A stretch of DNA of 64,000 nt from positions 1-64,000 of the forward strand of contig NZ_FOAF01000007.1 of NCBI RefSeq assembly GCF_900109575.1. The letters are read 5' to 3'. Shown one piece after another: positions 5,884 to 54,895 of this stretch. Source of the DNA: Olivibacter domesticus (GTDB lineage Bacteria > Bacteroidota > Bacteroidia > Sphingobacteriales > Sphingobacteriaceae). The position numbers were made by a program, and so were the translations under genes. How positions within the stretch are numbered: the stretch's first letter is position 1; each line of letters opens with the position of its first letter. The notes beneath the pieces are model-generated. The model did not search any database. It worked only from the letters and a program-made list of their open reading frames with translations, and was not told the origin of the DNA.

Positions 5884-6963
5884 ATGAAGAGAATAATTAT
5901 TACTGTAGTCGTTGTAATTGGTGCGGCAGCTCTGATTGGATGGATACTTAACAACAATAAAAAAGAAAATCAAGCTAAAACAGATATTGTAGCCAAGGGA
6001 ACAGGTGCCGTAATTGTACGTACTACCACGGCAAGCAAGTCGCCTATCAACTTAGATTTTTCTTCCAACGGAAACTTTGCTGCTTGGCAAGACCTTGCCT
6101 TAGTAGCAGAAAACAGTGGACGTGTTACGCGAATTTTGGTCGATGAAGGCTCACACGTTAACCGAGGGCAAATACTTGCTAGGATTGACGATGAATATTT
6201 AAATCTGGAGCTTCAATCAGCAGCAGATGAATTAAGTAAGCTTAAAACCGATCAACAACGATATGAAAGCTCTTTTAAAACCGGAGGGGTAACGAAGTCG
6301 CAGTTAGACGATATTAATTTGGATGTTCGCAATGCCGAAAATAAAGTACAACAGTCTAAACGCCGGCTAGCTGACTCCTATATAAAAGCCCCTATTTCGG
6401 GCATTATTAATAAACGCAGTATTGAAGTTGGAACGTATGTTTCTCCCGGTACCGCATTATTTGATATCGTGGATGTGTCTCGATTAAAATTACTCGTAAA
6501 TGCAAATGAATCACAGGTAGTGAACGTTAAAGTAGGCGATCAGGTAAAAATTACTACGAGCGTCTTCCCCGATAAGACGTTTAGCGGTAATATTTCATTT
6601 ATTGCGGCAAAAGCGGATAACACCCTTAACTATCCCGTTGAAATTCGCGTTGAAAATTCTTCTTCTCAATCATTAAAAGCAGGTATGTATGGGACGGCAG
6701 TATTTGACCTTCCAGAACAACAACCTACTATTGTTATTCCGAGAGGTGCCTTTATAGGTAGTGTAAGCAGCAATGAAATATTTGTGTTGGAAGATGGTAA
6801 AACGGCTAAACTTAGGAAGGTTACGTCTGGACGGATACTTGGAGAACAAGTTGAAATCTTGGACGGATTGAAAGAAGGAGAAACTGTTATAACAAGTGGA
6901 CAAATTAATTTGGTTGACGGAACTGAAGTAAAACCACAAAACGACGATAAGAAAAACAGCTAA
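5884..6963 (+). CDS. RND efflux periplasmic adaptor (HlyD/AcrA-type membrane fusion protein)
   Basis: The 359-aa adaptor links the inner-membrane pump to the outer-membrane channel. An N-terminal membrane anchor (residues 4-23, IIITVVVVIGAAALIGWIL) replaces the lipobox of AcrA. A lipoyl/barrel-sandwich half (VLVDEGSHVNRGQILARIDDEYL, split by helices near 110-145) follows, then a beta-barrel (PGTALFDIVDVSRLKLLVNA) and a C-terminal membrane-proximal domain ending LKEGETVITSGQINLVDG. It sits between tolC-like and RND genes with short gaps, so co-transcription is expected. The substrate cannot be read from the sequence. Confidence 0.94.
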   Translation: MKRIIITVVVVIGAAALIGWILNNNKKENQAKTDIVAKGTGAVIVRTTTASKSPINLDFSSNGNFAAWQDLALVAENSGRVTRILVDEGSHVNRGQILARIDDEYLNLELQSAADELSKLKTDQQRYESSFKTGGVTKSQLDDINLDVRNAENKVQQSKRRLADSYIKAPISGIINKRSIEVGTYVSPGTALFDIVDVSRLKLLVNANESQVVNVKVGDQVKITTSVFPDKTFSGNISFIAAKADNTLNYPVEIRVENSSSQSLKAGMYGTAVFDLPEQQPTIVIPRGAFIGSVSSNEIFVLEDGKTAKLRKVTSGRILGEQVEILDGLKEGETVITSGQINLVDGTEVKPQNDDKKNS

Positions 6964-7028
6964 GCATAGACAAAAAAATTGGATAGGCCCATACGCTATA
7001 TGTACCATTAAAATATAACAATTTACGG

Positions 7029-10000
7029 ATGAAAATTGCTGAAATATCAATAAAACGCCCTTCTATCGTTATTGTAGTGTTTACTGCACTAACCTTATTG
7101 GGCATTATATCTTACCTCTCATTAAATTATGAGATGCTGCCTAAGTTCAGTCCAGGTGTTGTTTCTATTTCAACAATATATCCTGGAGCATCTCCAAATG
7201 AAGTAGAAAATACCGTAACGAAAAAACTGGAAGATGCCGTTTCCTCCATGGAGAATATTAAAAAACTGGAAGCAACTTCCTTCGAAGGGCTTTCGGTGAT
7301 TACCATTACACTGACAAGTGAAGCGGATGTCGATTATGCGATAAATGATGCACAACGTAAGGTAAACGCTGTATTATCAGATTTACCAGATGATGCCGAA
7401 ACACCGTCGCTTGCAAAGTTCTCACTTGACGATCTTCCCATCGTAACGCTTTCTGCTACCGCATCGATGGATGACGCGCAATTTTTTGACCTGATAGATA
7501 AACGTATTCAGCCAATTGTTTCTCGTGTAAATGGCGTTGCCCAAGTGAATTTAATCGGGGGGCAGGAACGCGAAATCCAGGTAAATTTAAATGCAGCGAA
7601 ATTGGAAGCATATGGTCTATCCGCACTGGACGTCCAACAGGTTATTCTTAACTCTAACCTGGATTTTCCAACGGGCAGTGTAAAAACGAAGAACCAGGAT
7701 ATCCTAATCCGCTTGGCCGGTAAATATAAATCGGTTAATGAATTACGAAATCTCGTTGTCAGTACGGCAAATGACGGTGCGCAAATACGTTTGATGGATT
7801 TGGCGGATGTGCAAGATACGCAGGAAGACGCTGAAAAAATAGCGCGATTAAATCGAAGCGGTTCTATTATATTACAAATTATCAAGACCTCCGATGCAAA
7901 TGCGGTAAAAGTGAGCGAAGGTGTAAAGGCAATTCTGGAGCGTTTGAAGGCCGACTATCAAAAGGAAAACCTCCAGGTGGTGATCGCAAATGACACATCC
8001 GATTATACGCTTGAATCAGCAGATGCGGTCGTACACGATCTATTTTTGGCGGTTATTCTCGTTGCGGTTGTGATGTTATTTTTCCTGCATAGTTTACGAA
8101 ATGCAGTCATCGTCATGGTGGCTATACCCGCGTCACTTGTCGCTACCTTTATTGGAATCTACCTTTTCGGTTTCACGCTAAACCTGATGTCATTACTTGG
8201 TTTATCACTCGTGGTTGGTATTTTGGTAGACGATGCCATTGTTGTTATTGAAAATATTTACCGACATATGGAGATGGGGAAAAATAAGGTGCGGGCTTCT
8301 TATGATGCAACCAAGGAAATTGGTTTTACGGTGGTGTCTATTACCATGGTAATTGTAGTGGTATTCCTTCCCATTTCGGTAAGTACGGGTCTGGTGTCTG
8401 ATATTCTGCGAGAGTTTTGTGTGGTGGTCATGATCTCTACGCTTTTGAGTTTATTGGCCTCCTTTTCCATTGTACCATTACTCACTTCGCGATTTGGAAA
8501 ACTTGAACGCGTATCAAACAGTAACTTCATCGGAAGATTTATACTTTGGTTTGAAAAACAGTTACACCGCTTCACTAACTGGGTTACCGGTATATTAAAT
8601 TGGGCGTTGGATCATAAAGCCATTACGCTTGTAACCGTGTCCCTCCTATTGGTGTCGTCATGTGGATTGACTTTCGGTGGTTTTATCGGCGCAGAATTCT
8701 TTGCACAGAGTGATCGGGGGGAGTTCTTAGTTCAGATTGAATTGCCGAAAGATGCATCCCTTGAGCTAACCAATCAGGTCACGCGGAAAGCTGAAGATTT
8801 CTTAAGTAAGAAGAAGGAGATTGTCTCGTTGATTACCACAGTTGGTCAATCGAGCGACAACCTCGGCGCGGATCAATCGACCGCCTACAAGGCAGAAATT
8901 ACAGTCAAGCTCACCCCGAAGGAAGAGCGTGATGAGTCTTCCGACATCTATGCAGCCAAACTCAAGGGAGAAATTCAAAAGTTATTGGTGGGCGCAAAAG
9001 TAAAAACCGTACCGATTGACATTTTAGGGGCAGCCCAACAAGCACCAATTGAAATGGTGGTTACGGGGTCTGACTTGGATAGCGTACTCGCTTATGCGGA
9101 GAAAGCGCGTATCATATTATCAAAAGTACCTGGAGCCGCTGAAACAAAATTATCAGTAGAAAGTGGTAACCCAGAAATTACGGTTGAAGTAGATCGAGAT
9201 AAGATGACGGCGCTTGGTCTGTCTTTACAAACTGTTGGGGGGACCATGCAAACGGCTTTTAATGGAAATACCGACGGCAAGTTCAGGCAAGGAGAATATG
9301 AGTATGATATTAATATTCGCTTCGAAGATTACGACAGAAAGAATGTGGATGATGTGAAGAATCTTTATTTCTCTAATAATAGCGGTAAATTAATCAAGTT
9401 GTCACAATTCGCCGAAGTGAAAGAAGGATCGGGCCCAAGTCAGTTGGAACGAAGGGATAAAAGCACCTCTGTGAAGGTACAATCGCAAGCAGTTGGTCGC
9501 CCTTCAGGTACTGTCATTCAAGATTTTGAAAGCAAACTTAGTCAGCTACGGAAACCTACCGGTGTAAACTATGTGTGGGGTGGAGATATGGAAAATCAAT
9601 CGGAAGGTTTTGGAACATTGGGTGTTGCCTTAATGGTCTCTATTGTTTTGGTATACCTCATTATGGTGGCTTTATATGATAGTTTTGTTTATCCGTTCGT
9701 GGTAATGTTTTCCATTCCGCTATCTGTAATCGGGGCATTATTGGCCTTAGCGCTTACCAACAATTCATTGAATATATTTACCATTCTAGGATTGATCATG
9801 CTTATCGGACTGGTAGCAAAGAACGCGATCATTTTGGTGGATTTTACCAACCAGATGAAAGCAGAAGGACACAGTACACGGCAAGCCCTTATACATGCAA
9901 ACCATGCACGTTTACGTCCGATCCTGATGACAACCATTGCGATGGTCATCGGGATGATGCCTATTGCATTAGCGTCGAGTGCCGGTTCTGAATGGAAAAA

Positions 10001-46542: not shown

Positions 46543-47193
46543 ATGGGAAGAGTGATCAACGGCGCTAATGGCGCAATTTCAGGTAAAGTAGGAAGTGTAG
46601 TTTTTTGCAAGTGGAAAAACATCGATTATGTAAGAGGATTACCGCGTATAAACCGTAATAGAAAAGCTACTGAAGAGCAAGGGAAACAGCGCAGCAAATT
46701 CGGCTACATGCAAGACATTTTGGGATCTATTGTTCCATTGGTGAGACTTGGATTTATGAACTATGCCCCTAATAGGACTGGTCATAATTCGGCCATGTCA
46801 CATAATATTAAGCATGCAATCACTGAAACTGAAGCAGGCTTGAGAGTTATCCCAGAAAACTTTATGATCAGTGGTGGCATATTACCTGCACCAAGGGAAG
46901 CCAGTATTAGCCAGGAAGGAAACGACTTTATTTTTAAGTGGGCATATGATGCTATAAATGTAGATCGCAGTCATGCTGGAGATAGAACACTTCTACTCAT
47001 CACTGATTTTAAAGAATCTCCAAATTATACAAAATCAGGTGGTTTTAGAGATCAGGGAGAAGACCGTTTAACCATGTTTCGAGAAAAATACAGATCTGGC
47101 ACAATACTACACGGTTATATGGCGTTCTTTGCTACAGACGGCAGTAATAACAGCTCTAACAGTGTTTATGTCGGATCAATAGAAGTCAAATAA
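46543..47193 (+). CDS. DUF6266 family protein
   Basis: A 216-aa protein without signal peptide. The N-terminus MGRVINGANGAISGKVGSVV with the following KWKNIDYVRGLP is the family signature; a Gly-rich start and a beta-rich body follow. DUF6266 proteins occur in Sphingobacteriaceae, often in several copies, and have no known function. The gene stands alone behind an unusual direct-repeat promoter, and a 9-bp hairpin (47207-47235) follows the stop. Confidence 0.88.
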   Translation: MGRVINGANGAISGKVGSVVFCKWKNIDYVRGLPRINRNRKATEEQGKQRSKFGYMQDILGSIVPLVRLGFMNYAPNRTGHNSAMSHNIKHAITETEAGLRVIPENFMISGGILPAPREASISQEGNDFIFKWAYDAINVDRSHAGDRTLLLITDFKESPNYTKSGGFRDQGEDRLTMFREKYRSGTILHGYMAFFATDGSNNSSNSVYVGSIEVK

Positions 47194-47206
47194 ATTACAA
47201 ATTTTT

Positions 47207-47235
47207 ACCTACATTTATGTTAAAACAATGTAGGT
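47207..47235 (+). terminator. Hairpin after the DUF6266 gene
   Basis: A perfect 9-bp stem (ACCTACATT/AATGTAGGT) with an 11-nt loop, 14 bp past the stop. No T-run follows, so terminator function is uncertain. Confidence 0.4.
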
Positions 47236-47247
47236 TAATGATCAAAT

Positions 47248-47385
47248 ATGCTCATGGAAAATAAAGAGAGCCCATCACAAAATAAATTCATGATCTGGCT
47301 AAAGAGAGTGGGTTTTTGGGGCTTTCTATTTTTTCTACTGAAAGGAATTGTCTGGTTGATATTAGGGTACTGGGTGTTAAAGTAG
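47248..47385 (+). CDS. Small single-pass membrane protein (45 aa)
   Basis: MLMENKESPSQ opens a 45-residue frame with a basic stretch (WLKRVG) and a hydrophobic helix (FWGFLFFLLKGIVWLILGYW), typical of a small inner-membrane protein. Similar short proteins are conserved in Sphingobacteriales, where they are sometimes misnamed after neighbouring genes. An ATG at 47254 is an alternative start. It ends 42 bp before the GMC oxidoreductase gene and may share its transcript. Function unknown. Confidence 0.6.
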   Translation: MLMENKESPSQNKFMIWLKRVGFWGFLFFLLKGIVWLILGYWVLK

Positions 47386-47427
47386 TCTTCAAATGTTTTC
47401 GGATTAGACAAACTGAAAAAATAAAAC

Positions 47428-49128
47428 ATGAATATTTTAGGGAAAGCACAAGCAACGTATGATGCCATAGTGATAGGATCAGGTATCAGCGGTGGATGGG
47501 CGGCAAAAGAACTATGTGGTAAGGGCCTTAAAACACTTGTGTTAGAGCGTGGCGGTATGGTAAAACACATTCAAGATTACCCTACCGCCATGAAAGCTCC
47601 TTGGGAATTTCCATACCGTGGCGCACTTCCCCAAAAAACAGCCACTGCTAATCCGATTGTTTCCCGTTGCTATGCCTTTGATGATACAACCGAACACTTT
47701 TTTGTAAAAGATCAAGAGCATCCCTATATTCAAGAGAAACCATTCGACTGGATCAGAGGTTATCAAGTCGGAGGTAAATCATTATTATGGGCTCGACAGA
47801 CTCAGCGCTGGAGTGATTATGAATTTGACGCCCCTGCGCGCGATGGCTTTGCAGTAGATTGGCCTATCCGCTATCGAGATCTAGCACCGTGGTATAGTTA
47901 TGTTGAAAAGTTTACAGGCATCAGCGGTACACGAGACAATATTCCGAATCTTCCCGACAGCGAGGTGCTCCCGGCTTTTGAAATGAATGCGCTCGAAAAG
48001 CATATTAAGACCAAAGTGAAGGAGCACTTTCCTGAAAGGCATGTTATTATTGGCCGCTGTGCCCATCTTACACAACCGCAGGAAATACACGTTAAACAAG
48101 GACGTGGTCAATGTATGGCCCGCCATCTCTGTCACAGAGGGTGCCCTTTTGGCGCTTACTTCAGTTCTAATTCATCTACTATCCCTTGGGCACAGGCAAC
48201 AGGTAATCTCACATTAATGACCGATCAGGTGGTCCATTCTATTCTATATGATGAGCATAAAGGAAAGGCAATAGGTGTACGGACCGTAAATCGACACACG
48301 AAAGAGATACAAGAATATTATGCTAAGATTATTTTTGTGAATGCTTCTGCCTTAAATACCAATTTGATTTTATTGAATTCTACATCATCCCGTTTCCCAG
48401 AAGGTTTGGGAAATGATAATGAGTTATTAGGCCGATATATCGCTTTTCACAATTATCGCGGAAACATTTCCGCCTCTTTTGAAGGTTTATCTGATAGCTA
48501 TTACTACGGTCGAAGACCGACTAGTATTTTTATGCCTTCGTTCCGAAACGTATTCAAGCAAGAAACTGATTTCCTGAGAGGATATATGGTCGCATTCAAT
48601 GCAAGCAGAGCGGGCTGGCCCCGTTCTTCCGACGGACTTGGTGCCACTTTTAAAGATCAGTTAACAGCAGCAGGACCGTGGCAGGTATTTATGATGATGC
48701 AAGGAGAGACCGTGCCGCAATATGAAAACCATGTGCGCCTTAGTCAAGACCAGCAAGATCCTTGGGGAATTCCACAGCTCATCACCTCTGTTGACTATAC
48801 GGACAATGATGTTAGACTGATGCATGATTTTTTGGAGCAGGGTACCGCTATGCTCGAAAAATCAGGCTGTCATAGCATCAGTCAGCTTGATCGTCACGAT
48901 GCCCCAGGATTAGACATACATGAAATGGGTGGTGTACGTATGGGACATGATCCTAAAACATCTCTTTTAAATAAGTGGAACCAATTACATCACTGCAAAA
49001 ATGTTTTTGTAACGGATGGTGCCTGTATGACTTCCACAGGCAATCAAAACCCTTCTCTTACCTATATGGCTCTGACCGCCCGTGCCGCTGACTATGCCGC
49101 AAAAGCCTTATCCAAAGGAGAAATTTAA
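47428..49128 (+). CDS. GMC family FAD-dependent oxidoreductase
   Basis: A 566-aa glucose-methanol-choline-type oxidase/dehydrogenase. The N-terminal dinucleotide fold GSGISGGWAAKEL (residues 17-29) is followed by the FAD-contact GYQVGGKSLLW. The mid-domain has a Cys-rich CMARHLCHRGCPFG. The C-terminal GMC domain contains IHEMGGVRMG and the catalytic-region GNQNPSLTYMALTARAA. Relatives in this phylum oxidise sugars or polyols and often pair with a gluconate-dehydrogenase subunit 3, which is absent here. A DUF2905 gene and a second FAD oxidoreductase follow. Confidence 0.92.
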   Translation: MNILGKAQATYDAIVIGSGISGGWAAKELCGKGLKTLVLERGGMVKHIQDYPTAMKAPWEFPYRGALPQKTATANPIVSRCYAFDDTTEHFFVKDQEHPYIQEKPFDWIRGYQVGGKSLLWARQTQRWSDYEFDAPARDGFAVDWPIRYRDLAPWYSYVEKFTGISGTRDNIPNLPDSEVLPAFEMNALEKHIKTKVKEHFPERHVIIGRCAHLTQPQEIHVKQGRGQCMARHLCHRGCPFGAYFSSNSSTIPWAQATGNLTLMTDQVVHSILYDEHKGKAIGVRTVNRHTKEIQEYYAKIIFVNASALNTNLILLNSTSSRFPEGLGNDNELLGRYIAFHNYRGNISASFEGLSDSYYYGRRPTSIFMPSFRNVFKQETDFLRGYMVAFNASRAGWPRSSDGLGATFKDQLTAAGPWQVFMMMQGETVPQYENHVRLSQDQQDPWGIPQLITSVDYTDNDVRLMHDFLEQGTAMLEKSGCHSISQLDRHDAPGLDIHEMGGVRMGHDPKTSLLNKWNQLHHCKNVFVTDGACMTSTGNQNPSLTYMALTARAADYAAKALSKGEI

Positions 49129-49140
49129 TTAAGTTATGGT

Positions 49141-49362
49141 ATGAAAGAGATAGCAAGAATGATGATGGTTGGTGGAGGGATTATCATGCTTATCGGCCTG
49201 ACCATTTATTTCGCAGGAAGTTATTTTAAATGGTTTGGTAGGCTACCAGGAGATATCCGTATCGAAAAACCCGGATTTAACTTTTATGCGCCTATCATCA
49301 GTATGCTGATTATCAGTGGTATCATTAGCTTGTTAGTATGGCTTTTTAAAAAGCTTTTTTGA
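49141..49362 (+). CDS. DUF2905 family small membrane protein
   Basis: A 73-aa protein with two helices (about 7-27 and 47-69) and the family loop FGRLPGDIRIEKPGFNFYAPI between them. Function unknown in all characterised hosts. It lies 12 bp downstream of the GMC gene and 22 bp upstream of the FAD oxidoreductase, so the three are probably co-transcribed. Confidence 0.9.
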   Translation: MKEIARMMMVGGGIIMLIGLTIYFAGSYFKWFGRLPGDIRIEKPGFNFYAPIISMLIISGIISLLVWLFKKLF

Positions 49363-49384: not shown

Positions 49385-51088
49385 ATGAATAGAAGAAAGT
49401 TCATTTCGGGCGTTACACTTGGAGGCACCTATCTAGCCACGCAGCCTTCCATAACCTTAGGATCAAACATCGGACAGACCTATCACACTAAACTTCGGGA
49501 GTTTTCCGCAGACATTGTGGTTGTTGGCGGTGGACTGGGAGGTTGTGCAGCGGCTCTTGCCGCCCTACGTAATGGGCAACGCGTTATTTTAGTAGAAGAA
49601 ACAGACTGGTTAGGTGGCCAGTTAACACAGCAGGGGGTGCCGCCCGATGAACACCAATGGATAGAAACACAGGGTGCTACAAAATCTTACCGTACGTTCA
49701 GGGATAAGGTTCGGTCGTTTTATGTACGAAATTATCCGCTGACAGAAGAAGCGAAGAGCCGAAAATACCTCAACCCCGGTGATGGATCGGTATCGAGGTT
49801 ATGCCACGAACCATGTGTTGCGCTCGCTGTACTAGCGGAATTATTGGCACCCTATCTAAGTAATAGGAAACTGACTTTGCTCATGGAATACCGTGCTATA
49901 CGTGCAGATGTAGAAGGAGAGCAAGTGGCCACCATTGAAGTGCAGCATCAAAAAGACGGAACTAAGTTGGCATTACACGGCCAGTACTTTATAGATGCCA
50001 CAGAGCTCGGAGACTTACTCCCGCTCACGGGAACTGAATATGTGAAAGGCACGGAATCTAAAAAGGAAACAAATGAACTGCATGCACCTGAAATAAGCGA
50101 CCCTGAAAACCAGCAAGCTTTCACGATGTGTTTAGCGATGGACTATATCGAGGGAGAGGATCATCTAATAGATAAGCCTAAAGATTATGCCTTTTGGCGA
50201 GATTTTGTGCCGGATATGCAACCCTCGTGGTCCGGAAAATTACTGGACTTATCCTATTCGAGTCCGCGCACCCTTCAACCCACAAAATTAGGTTTTCATC
50301 CACAAGGTGACGAAACTGGAAAAATGTTAAACCTTTGGAATTATAGGAAGATCATTAATAAACATAACTTCTTGCCAGGCAACTACAGCGGCGACATTAG
50401 TATCATGAATTGGCCTCAGAACGATTATTTTCTAGGAAGTCTACCAGATGTAAGCGACGAGACATTCAAAAAACATGTTGATGCCGCGAAGCAGTTAAGT
50501 TTATCGCTCTTTTATTGGTTGCAAACCGCCGCTCCACGACCTGATGGCGGAGAAGGCTGGCCAGGATTAAGACTTAGAGGAGATATTTTGGGAACAACGG
50601 ATGGCCTGGCTAAATACCCATACGTAAGGGAGTCACGGCGTATAAAAGCACTCTTCACTGTTTTGGAGGAGCATGTGGGTGCGGAGAACAGGGCTTTCGT
50701 GAGTAATGAGCACCAAAAAGCTGACGAATTTTATGATAGCGTAGGCATTGGCTACTATCATATCGATTTGCATCCTAGTACGCAAGGCAATAATTATATT
50801 GATTTTGGTTCGCTGCCTTTTCAAATCCCATTGGGTGCATTGATCCCGATCCGGATGAAGAATTTATTAGCAGCCAATAAAAATATCGGCACGACCCACA
50901 TCACCAATGGCTGTTATCGCCTACATCCGGTTGAATGGAATATTGGAGAGGCTGCTGGTTTATTAGCAACTTATACCTTAAGTAAGAAGACTACACCTCA
51001 CGCAGTTAGAGCAAATGAGACACTACTAAACGATTTTCAGCAGTTTTTGCGAAAAGAAGGCATTGAAACGATTTGGAAAAACATCTAG
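49385..51088 (+). CDS. FAD-dependent oxidoreductase with Tat-like leader
   Basis: A 567-aa enzyme. The N-terminus NRRKFISGVTLGG carries a twin-arginine-like motif and suggests folded export. The FAD motif VVVGGGLGGCAAALAALRNG (about 45-64) and VEETDWLGGQLTQQGVPPDE place it in the FAD-dependent oxidoreductase family often annotated near xanthan-lyase-type proteins. The C-terminal NGCYRLHPVEWNIGEAAGL closes the cofactor fold. The last ~70 codons are duplicated, in diverged form, at 52143-52367 as part of a tandem duplication. Substrate unknown. Confidence 0.88.
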   Translation: MNRRKFISGVTLGGTYLATQPSITLGSNIGQTYHTKLREFSADIVVVGGGLGGCAAALAALRNGQRVILVEETDWLGGQLTQQGVPPDEHQWIETQGATKSYRTFRDKVRSFYVRNYPLTEEAKSRKYLNPGDGSVSRLCHEPCVALAVLAELLAPYLSNRKLTLLMEYRAIRADVEGEQVATIEVQHQKDGTKLALHGQYFIDATELGDLLPLTGTEYVKGTESKKETNELHAPEISDPENQQAFTMCLAMDYIEGEDHLIDKPKDYAFWRDFVPDMQPSWSGKLLDLSYSSPRTLQPTKLGFHPQGDETGKMLNLWNYRKIINKHNFLPGNYSGDISIMNWPQNDYFLGSLPDVSDETFKKHVDAAKQLSLSLFYWLQTAAPRPDGGEGWPGLRLRGDILGTTDGLAKYPYVRESRRIKALFTVLEEHVGAENRAFVSNEHQKADEFYDSVGIGYYHIDLHPSTQGNNYIDFGSLPFQIPLGALIPIRMKNLLAANKNIGTTHITNGCYRLHPVEWNIGEAAGLLATYTLSKKTTPHAVRANETLLNDFQQFLRKEGIETIWKNI

Positions 51089-51112
51089 TGATAATCTAAC
51101 ATTTAAAAACAA

Positions 51113-51892
51113 TTATTCTTCAATCGTGTACAGTGCTTCGATCTCTTCATCACTGATTCGTCTATTATAGCGTCTGAGCTCATCGACTTGACCTTTGAAA
51201 TACGATAGATAATCTCCGGTATCATGGCCGCCGTAATGCCAAGTGGCTCCCATAGTCTGTGAGTCACCCTCAAGATCGTCCATTAAAAACCAGTTCGCGA
51301 GGTAAGGAGCCGATGTTTCCAGTTTATTATCGACAAAGATTTCAACGAACTCATCAGCATCGGACCATCGAACAACAATATGATGCCATCTATTGGGCCT
51401 AATAATTGATACAGTTTGTAGCGGATTAAAGGATGACATACTATCTCGACTCCCCCATCTGTTAACATCTGAAATAAGTGAAACTTCACCTTCGCTTACT
51501 CCTAATCCATATCGAAGTACCCCCAATTGCTGATTTCCTTTAGCGAATAAATATGTTTGATACCTCGTTGTATCCGGAATACTTACCCAAAATGAGAGGG
51601 TCCCTAACGAATTCCCCATTCCAACATCTATATTCAGATAATTCTTACTTAAACATAGCGATGACTTGGGTCTATTAAAGCGATCATGTGAATAGGTAGC
51701 GCCATGTGTGTCATATGTTACGTCCGTTATTGTTTCAGTGCTATTTCCATCAAATGGAAAATACATCTCCAGGCCCTCTTCTAGGTTAACCTTATCAATA
51801 GGCTCTAAACCTGTCCCTTTATTACACGATACCAATAGGCCTATGAATAATAGACTACATAAAAAAAATGAACTAGTAAATATTGATTTCAT
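51113..51892 (-). CDS. LamG-domain lipoprotein, copy 1
   Basis: A 259-aa lipoprotein: lipobox GLLVSC (Cys23) and a concanavalin-A-like LamG jelly roll from about 38. LSFWVSIPDTTR and RWHHIVVRWSD are core strands, and the end has the characteristic GQVDELRRYNRRISDEEIEALY. Such domains bind glycans or serve as accessory modules; no enzyme domain is attached. It is convergent with the FAD oxidoreductase (24-bp gap) and has its own -7 box. Confidence 0.88.
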   Translation of the reverse strand: MKSIFTSSFFLCSLLFIGLLVSCNKGTGLEPIDKVNLEEGLEMYFPFDGNSTETITDVTYDTHGATYSHDRFNRPKSSLCLSKNYLNIDVGMGNSLGTLSFWVSIPDTTRYQTYLFAKGNQQLGVLRYGLGVSEGEVSLISDVNRWGSRDSMSSFNPLQTVSIIRPNRWHHIVVRWSDADEFVEIFVDNKLETSAPYLANWFLMDDLEGDSQTMGATWHYGGHDTGDYLSYFKGQVDELRRYNRRISDEEIEALYTIEE

Positions 51893-51925
51893 AATTCAGG
51901 TGTTTTTTATTATAGATTGTGAAAT

Positions 51926-51933
51926 CAAAATTA
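51926..51933 (-). promoter_or_regulatory. -7 promoter element (TAATTTTG) of LamG copy 1
   Basis: TAnnTTTG on the minus strand, 33 bp upstream of the ATG, identical in the other copy. Confidence 0.5.
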
Positions 51934-52142
51934 TATAAAATATCAGGTCAGTGCCCCCGTTCTCCCTTTCTGTTAAAAAATCGTGTATTATTGTCTAAGT
52001 ATGGCATTTTAAATGTTCCGCGCCCCGACTATTAGCTCCATATTTTCTCATTATTCTCTATTGCTGTTTTTTAATTATGATAATTTGAGATAGTTAAGAA
52101 ATAAATAAAGCGGATATCTCACGACAGCGCGACAGCAACAGC

Positions 52143-52367
52143 GCCAATAAAAACATCGGCACTACCTGCATTACGAATGGCTGCTATCGCTTACATCCGG
52201 TTGAATGGAATATTGGAGAAGCTGCTGGTTTATTAGCTGTATATGCCATCCATAAAAAGGTTGCGCCGCAGACTGTTAAAGCAACGAAGACACTGCTAAC
52301 CGAATTTCAACAGTTCGTGAGAAAAGAAGGCATAAACGGTGTGAAAAAAGATCTAGCGATAATTTAA
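52143..52367 (+). pseudogene. Remnant of the C-terminus of the FAD oxidoreductase
   Basis: Seventy-four in-frame codons aligning with the last ~72 codons of the 49385-51088 gene (NIGTT..TNGCYRLHPVEWN, then GEAAGLLA, ending in a different tail). It has no start codon; the 5' junction is at GCCAATAAAA. It was created by the tandem duplication. The frame is still open and substitutions are partly conservative, so it may derive from a former full paralogue that was later deleted. Confidence 0.85.
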
Positions 52368-52380
52368 GATTTAAAGACAA

Positions 52381-53157
52381 TTATTCTTCAATCGTGTACA
52401 GGGCTTCAATCTCTTCATCACTGATTCGTCTATTATAGCGTCTGAGCTCATCGACCTGACCTTTGAAATACGATAGATAATCTCCGGTATCATGACCGCC
52501 GTAACTCCAAGCGGCTCCCATAGTTTCAGTCTCTTCATATTCATCTTCAGTTACCAAACGCCAGCCTTCTAAGTAAGAAGCTGATGCTTCCAGTTTATTA
52601 TCGACAAAGATTTCAACAAACTCATCAGCATCGGACCATCGAACAACAATATGGTGCCATTTATTCGGTTTGATAACGGATGCAGTTACTAGGTCGTCAA
52701 AATACGATATACTGTCAACCCCCCATCGGTCTCGATTTGAAATAAGTGAAACTTTACCTTCGCTTACTCTTAATCCATATCGAAGTACCCCCAATTGCTG
52801 ATTCCCTTTAGCGAATAAATTTGGTTGAAATCTTGTATCCGGAACACTTACCCAGAAGGAGAAAGTACCTACCGAGTTCCCCATTCCAACATCTATATTC
52901 AGATAGTTCTTACTAAAACATAGCGATGACTTGGGTCTATTAAAGCGATCATCTGTGTATGTAGCGCCATGTGTGTCATACGTTACGCCCGTTATTGTTT
53001 CAGTGCTATTTCCATCGAATGGAAAATACATCTCCAGGTCCTCTTCTAGATTAACCTTATCAGTAGGCTCTAAACCTGTCCCTTTATTACACGACACCAA
53101 TAGGCTTATGAATAATAGACTACATAAAAAAAATGAACTAGTAGATATTGATTTCAT
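52381..53157 (-). CDS. LamG-domain lipoprotein, copy 2
   Basis: A 258-aa paralogue of the 51113-51892 gene, with the same lipobox (LLVSC), LamG core and C-terminal VDELRRYNRRISDEEIEALYTIEE. By eye the ends are almost identical, while about residues 150-225 differ strongly (EEYEETETMGAAWSYGG against EGDSQTMGATWHYGG). This mid-domain variation lies in surface strands and loops and may reflect changed ligand specificity or recombination. It is transcribed from its own copy of the promoter. Confidence 0.87.
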   Translation of the reverse strand: MKSISTSSFFLCSLLFISLLVSCNKGTGLEPTDKVNLEEDLEMYFPFDGNSTETITGVTYDTHGATYTDDRFNRPKSSLCFSKNYLNIDVGMGNSVGTFSFWVSVPDTRFQPNLFAKGNQQLGVLRYGLRVSEGKVSLISNRDRWGVDSISYFDDLVTASVIKPNKWHHIVVRWSDADEFVEIFVDNKLEASASYLEGWRLVTEDEYEETETMGAAWSYGGHDTGDYLSYFKGQVDELRRYNRRISDEEIEALYTIEE

Positions 53158-53189
53158 AATAGGTATTTTTTATTTATAGATTGTGAAAT

Positions 53190-53197
53190 CAAAATTA
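53190..53197 (-). promoter_or_regulatory. -7 promoter element (TAATTTTG) of LamG copy 2
   Basis: TAnnTTTG match 33 bp upstream of the ATG. Confidence 0.5.
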
Positions 53198-53372
53198 TAT
53201 AAAATATGAGATCAGTCACCTCGTCCTCTTTTTTTGTTAAGAAAACGTGTATTGTTGTCTATATATGGTGTTTTTGAGATAGGAGTATTGATTATTAGTT
53301 CCATATTTTCTCATTATTCTCTGTTGGAATTTATTAATTCTTTCATATAATTGAAATAGTTAAGAAATAAAT

Positions 53373-53400
53373 AAAGCGGATATCTCCCGACAACCGCTTT
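53373..53400 (-). terminator. Imperfect terminator-like hairpin upstream of LamG copy 2
   Basis: AAAGCGG (53373-53379) pairs with CCGCTTT (53394-53400) across a 14-nt loop. On the minus strand it runs into a T-rich stretch, so it could insulate the LamG unit from upstream transcription. The equivalent site in unit 1 has lost the second arm at the duplication junction. Confidence 0.45.
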
Positions 53401-53448
53401 ACACTAACTAAACTAAACAAAATATAAACCATCGATATATGGTGATCT

Positions 53449-53580
53449 TTATATCTTTTCATTAAATAATACGGTATTCCCAAAGGGATCAATGAGTGTC
53501 ATTGATGATTTAATTTTAAAGTTCCGGTCCGTCATCCCAACACGAAGGACCGAGAACTTTAAACCAACCAAACCTAACAT
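53449..53580 (-). pseudogene. Truncated C-terminal fragment of a VOC/glyoxalase-fold protein
   Basis: A 43-codon frame from ATG 53580 contains GMTDRNFKIKSSMTLIDPFG and NTVLFNE at its end, which is how VOC-superfamily (glyoxalase/bleomycin resistance) domains finish, with the Asp-Pro-x-Gly-Asn turn. The frame is closed by stops just upstream, so the first ~80 residues are missing. It is called a remnant; a short functional peptide is less likely. Confidence 0.55.
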
Positions 53581-53786
53581 GAAACATGTTTTCCTTTACA
53601 TTGTTTAAGATCCTAATTTAGTTTTGAATATTATTTAGAATCATTATCAATTACAACGCAAGTATAGCTCTTATTTAGAACAAGTACAAATAATATTTAT
53701 AGAAATTTTTATATCGCTAAAAAACAGTGTATAGAAGATCCTTTGCTAGGCCGCCTCCTTATAATAAATCGTTTGTGAAATATTGC

Positions 53787-53794
53787 TATTTTTG
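53787..53794 (+). promoter_or_regulatory. -7 promoter element (TATTTTTG)
   Basis: TAnnTTTG match 61 bp upstream of the lipoprotein ATG; spacing to any -33 TTTG is not canonical. Confidence 0.4.
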
Positions 53795-53854
53795 TTGGTC
53801 GGTGCTAATTATTGTAAGTCGACATGGATGCTTAAACCTGTTATTCCCAGATAG

Positions 53855-54895
53855 ATGAATATTATTTTGCTTTTAGCCAAACGCCTGCTTTTTTCTATCC
53901 TATTTCTCACGGTCGTTAGCACAGCTTTATCATGCGCTCAGTTAACCGTTACCGAAATAACGTCAAATAATGCAGTGGGAGCTGTTGTAAGAGATTCCCT
54001 TACTACGCAGTATGTAGATAGCATGGATTACTTTTCCAGACTATATACTCTTGCGAACGACACCGCTGGAAAATGGCCTGTTTTGAATCAACCTCTTCCT
54101 TTACAAGGTGCTATTTTACCTTATAACCGGATTATTGCCTTTTATGGCAATCTCTACTCCACTAGAATGGGTATCTTGGGGGAGCTTCCACCTAAGCAAA
54201 TGTTGGCAAAGCTTGATCAAGAAGTAGCAAGATGGAATCGGGCAGATAGCAGTTTAAACGCCATACCTGCTCTTCACTATATTGCCGTTACTGCCCAAGG
54301 GGATCCCGGTAAAGATGGGAAACACCGTCTGCGCATGCCAAGTAAACAAATAGACTCTGTTCTAAGCATTGCTGCCATGCGTGACCACATGCTTGTTTTC
54401 TTGGATATACAAATTGGTCTAAGTAATCTAGAACAAGAAATTCCCCGTTTGGAAAAGTATCTTCAGTTGCCCTTTGTGCATCTTGGTATCGATCCAGAAT
54501 TCTCTATGAAAGATGGAAGCAAACCGGGTTCAAGGATTGGAAACTTCCATGCACAAGATATTAACTATGCATCGGATTTTTTAGCGCAATTGGTAAGAAA
54601 ATATAGACTCCCTCCTAAAATATTAGTGGTACACCGTTTTACAAAGGCGATGGTTCAACAGTATCAAGCTATTAAACTCAGGGAAGAAGTACAATTTGTA
54701 ATGGAAATGGATGGCTGGGGAGCCCCAGAATTAAAGAAAGGCACCTATAGGCATTTCATTTATGCGGAGCCTGTACAATTTACAGGATTCAAGTTATTCT
54801 ATAAAAATGACATCAAACAGGCTCCAAAAAGAATGCTTACACCCGAAGAGTTGCTAAAATTAAAGCCAAAACCAATCTACATTCAATATCAATAG
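53855..54895 (+). CDS. Predicted lipoprotein of unknown function (346 aa)
   Basis: The leader (RLLFSILFLTVVSTALSC, lipobox Cys27) indicates an exported lipoprotein. The mature part has no family I recognise. It contains KPGSRIGNFHAQDINYASDFL and PPKILVVHRFTKAMVQQY, which could be strands and helices of an alpha/beta barrel, and FVMEMDGWGAPELKKGTYRH, which looks like a substrate-pocket loop with acidic residues. It is monocistronic, convergent with msrA. I would call it hypothetical. Confidence 0.75.
   Translation: MNIILLLAKRLLFSILFLTVVSTALSCAQLTVTEITSNNAVGAVVRDSLTTQYVDSMDYFSRLYTLANDTAGKWPVLNQPLPLQGAILPYNRIIAFYGNLYSTRMGILGELPPKQMLAKLDQEVARWNRADSSLNAIPALHYIAVTAQGDPGKDGKHRLRMPSKQIDSVLSIAAMRDHMLVFLDIQIGLSNLEQEIPRLEKYLQLPFVHLGIDPEFSMKDGSKPGSRIGNFHAQDINYASDFLAQLVRKYRLPPKILVVHRFTKAMVQQYQAIKLREEVQFVMEMDGWGAPELKKGTYRHFIYAEPVQFTGFKLFYKNDIKQAPKRMLTPEELLKLKPKPIYIQYQ

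Follow-up and report, generated by a model that had tools for sequence, protein, structure and literature searches.

The small RNAs (sRNAs) RyhB, PrrF, HrrF, FsrA and IsrR are repressed by iron and are iron-sparing, and sRNAs of this kind are well known in Proteobacteria and Firmicutes. The window analysed here is a stretch of 64,000 nucleotides (nt) from Olivibacter domesticus (assembly GCF_900109575.1, contig NZ_FOAF01000007.1, positions 1 to 64,000). It contains a duplicated unit made up of the tail of a flavin adenine dinucleotide (FAD)-dependent oxidoreductase gene and a LamG lipoprotein gene. At the right edge of this unit lies an element (53368-53693, minus strand) that is a candidate iron-linked sRNA, without a match in Rfam at gathering scores or in the literature searched. 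The duplication by itself is an ordinary lineage-specific tandem event. Like other tandem duplications with partial capture of a neighbour, it has a head-to-tail unit, a truncated neighbour, filler at the joint and retained paralogues; it differs from them by a breakpoint inside a terminator hairpin and by strongly mosaic divergence. The element resembles the sRNAs named above in its putative iron-uptake-type promoter, conserved stretch, intrinsic terminator and complementarity to succinate dehydrogenase mRNA. It differs from them in that the complement lies in the sdhB 3' untranslated region (UTR) and in that it forms the 3' UTR of a heme-uptake operon or persists where that operon is gone, and it differs from RyhB in having no match to it in Rfam at E<=5.

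The explanation of the doubling that is held with considerable confidence is a tandem duplication that began within the 3' end of the oxidoreductase gene, stopped inside the terminator hairpin beyond LamG and is confined to this lineage among the genomes compared. A diverged tandem duplication had been proposed in the earlier note, and formal alignment of unit A (50873-52126) with unit B (52143-53392) bears this out: 1061 of 1243 ungapped columns are identical (85.4%), and the local alignment score of 851 is far above the maximum of 17 from 30 shuffles. The accompanying idea of unequal recombination is supported, as unequal or illegitimate recombination. The repeat copies are spaced 1263-1271 nt apart. 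Each unit combines three parts, the plus-strand oxidoreductase tail, the minus-strand LamG lipoprotein gene and the upstream tract of LamG, whose identities between the units are 80.4%, 87.7% and 82.3%, respectively. The tract had been described as a trailing regulatory one; it is present in both units, but lies upstream of the minus-strand LamG genes. The 15% divergence between the units, with indels, makes an assembly duplicate implausible, and an assembly artefact is rejected on this ground as the source of unit B.

The genus was sampled through five genomes, those of O. domesticus (G000), G001, G002, G003 and G004. At the G001 locus one oxidoreductase gene (73%) is convergent with one LamG gene (52% identical to LamG A), and the locus continues with orthologues of the window's 346-amino-acid gene (68%), of msrA and of a parC/gyrA-type gene, the last two named by eye. 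In G003 the oxidoreductase gene stands beside SusC/SusD-type genes and LamG is at another place; G004 has LamG elsewhere and no oxidoreductase match, and neither gene was found in G002. On this comparison the gene pair and its place are older than the species and the doubling is seen only in G000. Since G001 has a single oxidoreductase and a single LamG at the locus, the doubling is assigned to the G000 lineage. The right flank in G001 runs unbroken past the position equivalent to the unit end, and unit B therefore retains the ancestral right flank. The upstream tract of LamG A (51893-52126) contains TAATTTTG, a promoter-like element that is also present in G001. A small open reading frame (ORF) upstream of LamG, apparently common to both copies by eye, was not evident in G001 and was dropped. 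As a separate observation, the RNA element and msrA come immediately after a DUF6266-like gene in G004 (L082:4294-6334, compared with window 46543-49362), without the intervening GMC oxidoreductase, DUF2905, FAD oxidoreductase and LamG genes.

The earlier note had seen in the two units a possible relic of a longer array of paired genes. This is unsupported and highly improbable, as nothing beyond the two units speaks for it. A DNA search of the G000 genome found no third unit; the oxidoreductase sequences of this kind are a single complete gene and the tail, with further matches distant, and LamG matches comprise the two at the locus and one distant relative on another contig. Oxidoreductase matches at E<=1e-50 were found in 8 of 100 genomes (G000 included), one in each. 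LamG matches at E<=1e-12 occur in 11 of 399 family genomes (G000 included), a sample of a larger group in which at most six candidates were scored per genome; among the matches listed, two stand side by side in G000 only and no tandem pair was found elsewhere. A contig scan with LamG gave two distant loci and was uninformative.

The first oxidoreductase copy matches FAD_oxidored (PF12831) with 339.1 bits over residues 43-548, which is the full FAD-binding domain. The second copy lacks the N-terminal FAD-binding part, its match being confined to residues 490-566. Its frame opens at 52098 and has no ATG, GTG or TTG before 52317, so that the tail of unit B is open yet without a usable early start. 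It had been credited with 74 in-frame codons; it is in register, but for only about 64 codons, after which a 2-nt deletion shifts the frame and reading continues to a stop at 52365. An otherwise invariant His is replaced by Cys. Branch-specific codon models of the whole gene gave an omega of 0.75 for the B branch, which does not differ from 1 (p = 0.85) and does differ from the background of 0.028 (p = 6e-6). Full constraint throughout is rejected with a clock (p = 1e-4) and without one (p = 7e-4), and without a clock a tail dead from birth stands (p = 0.44). A functional tail in unit B is ruled out by the missing early start codon and the rejected full constraint, and we infer that it is passenger DNA and dead now.

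Both units carry LamG genes, as had been claimed earlier, the two proteins matching the Laminin_G_3 profile (PF13385) with 57.0 and 52.1 bits (gathering score 27.6). The predicted model, with a predicted local distance difference test score (pLDDT) of 75, has concanavalin-like matches in the PDB, for example 5hp6 (Z 18.1, root mean square deviation 2.8, 183 aligned). Receptor-binding domains of clostridial neurotoxins are frequent among the best fold matches, which shows only that the concanavalin-like fold is common to them. Cys23 is invariant in all 8 aligned sequences and the lipobox was assigned by eye. The most probable role of the proteins is to bind glycans or proteins as membrane-anchored lipoproteins of concanavalin-like fold. 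They resemble known Laminin_G_3/concanavalin-like lipoproteins in their PF13385 match, probable lipoprotein-type signal and jelly-roll model, and differ in that no enzyme domain is attached. A decayed LamG relative with seven in-frame stops is also present in G003 (C1:2655928-2656620, L055).

LamG A and LamG B are both open and under purifying selection, with a non-synonymous divergence (dN) of 0.099, a synonymous divergence (dS) of 0.280 and a dN/dS of 0.35. Their divergence is patchy: identity is 63.5% in codons 141-162 and 62.5% in codons 198-221, and 88.6-97.4% in the other parts of the gene. The windowed variance of matches exceeds that of all 2000 permutations. The model places both patches between the long strands and has low confidence around the second. 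Per synonymous site there are 0.44 differences in the tail, 0.48 in the LamG patches and 0.19 in the remaining LamG, and the last value differs by Fisher's test from that of the tail (p = 0.002) and from that of the patches (p = 0.006). As the tail is more diverged at synonymous sites than LamG, a single age for the whole unit requires gene conversion, which may have homogenised most of LamG while the tail and the two patches keep their full age. Faster change within the patches themselves is an alternative to such conversion.

Several results weigh against a one-step duplication. The gene conversion that it needs for a single unit age is putative, and the longest identical run is unremarkable, being matched in 190 of 2000 permutations. 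When the omega of branch A is freed as well, the estimates are unstable (12.2 for A and 0.21 for B) and omega_B = 1 gives p = 0.13. With a clock, a tail dead from birth is rejected (p = 0.007), and with equal time for A and B the best fit has 29% of the tail's history neutral and about 70% constrained. The conserved first 31 codons show 8 synonymous and 2 non-synonymous differences. These tests cover 64 codons, with saturated outgroups and with outgroup branches fixed and rounded, and the clock result is for this reason suggestive only. Together with the 8:2 synonymous excess it favours either a second copy that was longer and functional or the import of a diverged one.

The first of these options is that the whole oxidoreductase-LamG pair was doubled and that a later deletion removed the stretch from the terminator hairpin to about codon 496 of the second oxidoreductase. 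Partial constraint under the clock makes a once longer second copy possible, and in the conserved half of the tail the synonymous sites have diverged with the encoded protein sequence preserved. The earlier statement that the second unit had lost its oxidoreductase agrees with the past constraint favoured by the clock, but a one-step duplication needs no loss. Doubling of the whole pair is rather unlikely, as two events are required where one is enough, no relative with two full oxidoreductases was seen among the 100 genomes, a second tail occurs in only one of the five genus genomes and neutrality of the tail is not rejected when the clock is dropped. The second option is that unit B is a diverged homologue that was imported from a sister species, in which its tail was functional, and joined beside unit A. 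The same clock result and the mosaic of high and low divergence would fit such an import. It is nevertheless improbable, since unit B adjoins the ancestral right flank, a search of the available genomes revealed no donor, and the LamG of G001, the only other genome seen with the locus, is equally distant from LamG A and LamG B (dN 0.42 each).

Under the preferred tandem duplication, the joint may have been created by illegitimate recombination or template switching at the terminator hairpin, leaving about 16 nt of filler and a breakpoint within the hairpin. Both LamG copies would have been retained for dosage or differing ligands, later gene conversion would have evened out most of LamG except the two patches, and the oxidoreductase tail, carried along as a passenger, would then have died.

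On its right the unit breaks off within the hairpin at 53373-53400, at a point that separates the inner helix from the CCGCTTT arm; in G001 the same hairpin is whole and uninterrupted. The adjoining element is read, with moderate confidence and from sequence comparison, as a member of an iron-controlled, trans-acting sRNA family of Sphingobacteriaceae-like bacteria. The RNA would be made from the 3' end of the hmuRYTUVS operon or from its own promoter, would pair with the sdhB 3' UTR, would have outlived the operon genes in three species and would be a functional analogue of RyhB. If this is right, the candidate RNA would be RyhB-type by putative function and not of the RyhB family by sequence.

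In G003 the order of the operon is msrA, promoter, TonB receptor, HmuY, periplasmic binding protein, FecCD permease, ATPase, HemS/ChuX protein and hairpin. G002 has the same order of heme genes next to msrA and a related 3' UTR, without the stem-loop that follows hmuY in G003. At this locus G000, G001 and G004 lack the six heme genes; a genome-wide search was made for hmuS only, which is found in two of the five genus genomes (G002 and G003), and in the 18% of G000 examined receptor and ATPase matches are distant only. In the three species without heme genes there, promoter, stem-loop and terminator-bearing 3' UTR remain side by side. The state of the heme genes at the locus is likely to reflect loss, not gain. 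The promoter of the element is shared with the hmuR promoter in two species, and its box may be a Fur box.

That the six heme genes lie between these same pieces in G003 and G002 would also be expected if the element were the leftover promoter and terminator of a lost heme operon, without a function of its own. This is unlikely, in part because in the three species without heme genes there the 3' part is strongly kept and the stretch between it and the promoter is poorly kept. The 3' part retains 68 of 73 positions between G000 and G001, 69 of 73 between G000 and G004 and 73 of 74 between G001 and G004. For the promoter the corresponding counts over 62 positions are 53, 54 and 56, and for the stretch between they are 35/90, 30/75 and 45/75. 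The LamG upstream tract keeps 88 of 157 positions between G000 and G001, and the synonymous sites of neighbouring genes are near saturation between these two genomes. Compensatory evidence for the second stem-loop gives weak support: RNAalifold found zero compensatory pairs in an automatic alignment, and pairing of the arms by hand gave some pair changes, with several pairs failing in G001, G003 and G004, two of the G001 failures coming from a misplaced cut of one arm. A relic peptide lies between the two conserved RNA parts in G000 and was not seen in the G001 and G004 elements.

Relatives were scanned in 60 genomes with up to 3 mismatches, giving 41 places, of which the element-like or core-like ones in the genus and that in G031 were followed. 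An exact 23-mer beside the hairpin occurs in G000, G001, G003 and G004; outside the genus a backward control matched about as often. Loci of the element as conserved in the three species without heme genes there are, besides that in the window, L033:8545-8855, L082:5395-5670, L081, L084 and L087.

The five genus sequences were used to build a covariance model for the 3' part, and at E<=0.01 this model matched 36 of the 399 family genomes. Of the matches, thirteen are strong (E<=1e-7), five being in the genus genomes that supplied the model and eight being independent, in genus g4. E is above 1e-4 in 23 of the 36 genomes and the RNA there is treated as unproven. One of these 23, G240 (L117), contains GTTGTTTAGTTTAGTTA. 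A weak match in G007 (L120, reverse strand 6400-7700, E = 2.7e-4) lies about 0.6 kb after a truncated hmuR-like stretch and precedes a gene that by eye resembles the one following the RNA in G116.

In genus g4, hmuS is just upstream of the RNA at six of the eight loci and is absent at two (G116 and G047), where none of the six heme genes lies within 11.5 kb. The promoter element TATCTTTG stands 56-96 nt before the RNA core at seven of the eight loci. The exact box TTATTTATAATCTTTCTAAATAA is present at six and a one-base variant in G107; G131 has neither promoter element nor box. Two loci are free-standing (L092 and L097), five follow hmuS with their own promoter (L093, L095, L098, L099 and L100) and one follows hmuS without its own promoter (L096). 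An own promoter at seven of eight loci, two of them without a heme-operon gene nearby, argues against a functionless leftover. The seven predicted g4 RNAs are 97-135 nt long; they vary in their 5' part and are almost constant in their 3' part. In the terminator helix, 8 of 13 pairs are changed on both sides while 99.4% of cells are paired (12 distinct sequences from few clades), in an alignment fitted to the model, which favours pairing; sliding the partners lowers pairing to 35-57%. The whole RNA structure is 97.6% paired, against 84.3% when shuffled.

Two matches of the relatives scan lie just past the stop codon of a succinate dehydrogenase iron-sulphur gene (sdhB), in G003 and G004, where its identity comes from the Pfam domains of the protein and of its flavoprotein neighbour. 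The same site in the sdhB 3' UTR was then found in G000. Exact complementarity to the species' own RNA extends over 15 nt in G000, 21 nt in G003 and 18 nt in G004, lengths reached by 0 of 2000 random G000 60-mers in each comparison. Such complementarity would not be expected of a mere leftover of the operon, although it could also stem from a shared origin of the two terminator regions and not from regulation. The G003 and G004 sites were found by searching with this sequence, and G000 is therefore the sole independent check.

Other results in G000 speak against regulation by the RNA. A second 15-nt complement precedes a start codon within A-rich sequence at a place other than sdhB (L172), so that length alone does not single out sdhB there. 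Pairing at start codons is not enriched among 946 ORFs of at least 100 amino acids, taken from 1.22 Mb or about 18% of the genome, in which 37 sites reach <=-12 kcal/mol. Shuffled seeds, 20 in number, averaged 53.9 such sites, and the reversed seed gave 26. The iron-box palindrome is likewise not enriched in this 1.22 Mb, with 5 sites against 2, 3 and 6 for scrambled palindromes. The lack of excess start-codon pairing and of promoter-box enrichment would both fit a leftover promoter and terminator.

Searches for described RNAs gave little. At gathering scores there were zero Rfam matches in the whole window, a permissive search of 51890-53860 gave three weak matches that are taken for chance, and the L20_leader match is weak (E = 0.014, 26.8 bits, gathering score 58.7). 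No iron-sparing sRNA in Bacteroidota was among the matches listed in open-access full text, which mostly leaves subscription papers outside. The one listed Bacteroides RNA paper with iron terms concerns a nitrite-responsive RNA (PMC13370916). Features of the locus are listed in Table 1.

Table 1. Features of the duplicated unit and of the element at its right edge, in window positions, and complementary sites in three species
Feature	Position	Strand	Domain match
Full-length FAD-dependent oxidoreductase, 567 amino acids	49385..51088	+	PF12831 FAD_oxidored
Unit A: oxidoreductase tail, LamG A, LamG A upstream tract and part of terminator hairpin without CCGCTTT arm	50873..52126		
LamG lipoprotein A, 259 amino acids, signal sequence ending LVSC	51113..51892	-	PF13385 Laminin_G_3
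LamG A upstream tract, ending within terminator hairpin	51893..52126	-	
Junction filler, ~16 nt, like neither flank	52127..52142		
Oxidoreductase tail fragment of unit B, apparently dead: in register for ~64 codons, frameshift near end	52143..52367	+	
LamG lipoprotein B, 258 amino acids, 83% identical to LamG A	52381..53157	-	
LamG B upstream tract; unit ends inside terminator hairpin, just short of CCGCTTT arm	53158..53392	-	
Conserved 3' RNA: stretch GTTTAGTTTAGTTAGTGTAAAG (53397-53418) and intrinsic terminator (arms within 53373-53400); 3' end of candidate sRNA	53368..53442	-	
23-codon relic FKIKSSMTLIDPFGNTVLFNEKI, sub-threshold likeness to C-terminus of glyoxalase-superfamily protein	53449..53520	-	Glyoxalase_7, E = 0.02, 15.3 bits (cut-off 23.6)
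Second conserved stem-loop (CATGTTTCATGTTAGGTTTGGTTGGTTT...); downstream of hmuY in G003	53516..53588	-	
Leftover hmuR-type promoter: TTATTTGTACTTGTTCTAAATAA (53671-53693), TATACTTG (53659-53666), half-box TTCTAAATAA (from 53631)	53631..53693	-	
sdhB 3' UTR complementary sites, three species	L138:502-516; L123 minus strand after sdhB; L124:2360-2380		

The duplication is a neat example of a surface lipoprotein doubling and diversifying, and its wider weight is limited. The element at its edge may matter more. An sRNA kept after the loss of its host operon would, if true, be a natural experiment showing selection on the RNA itself.

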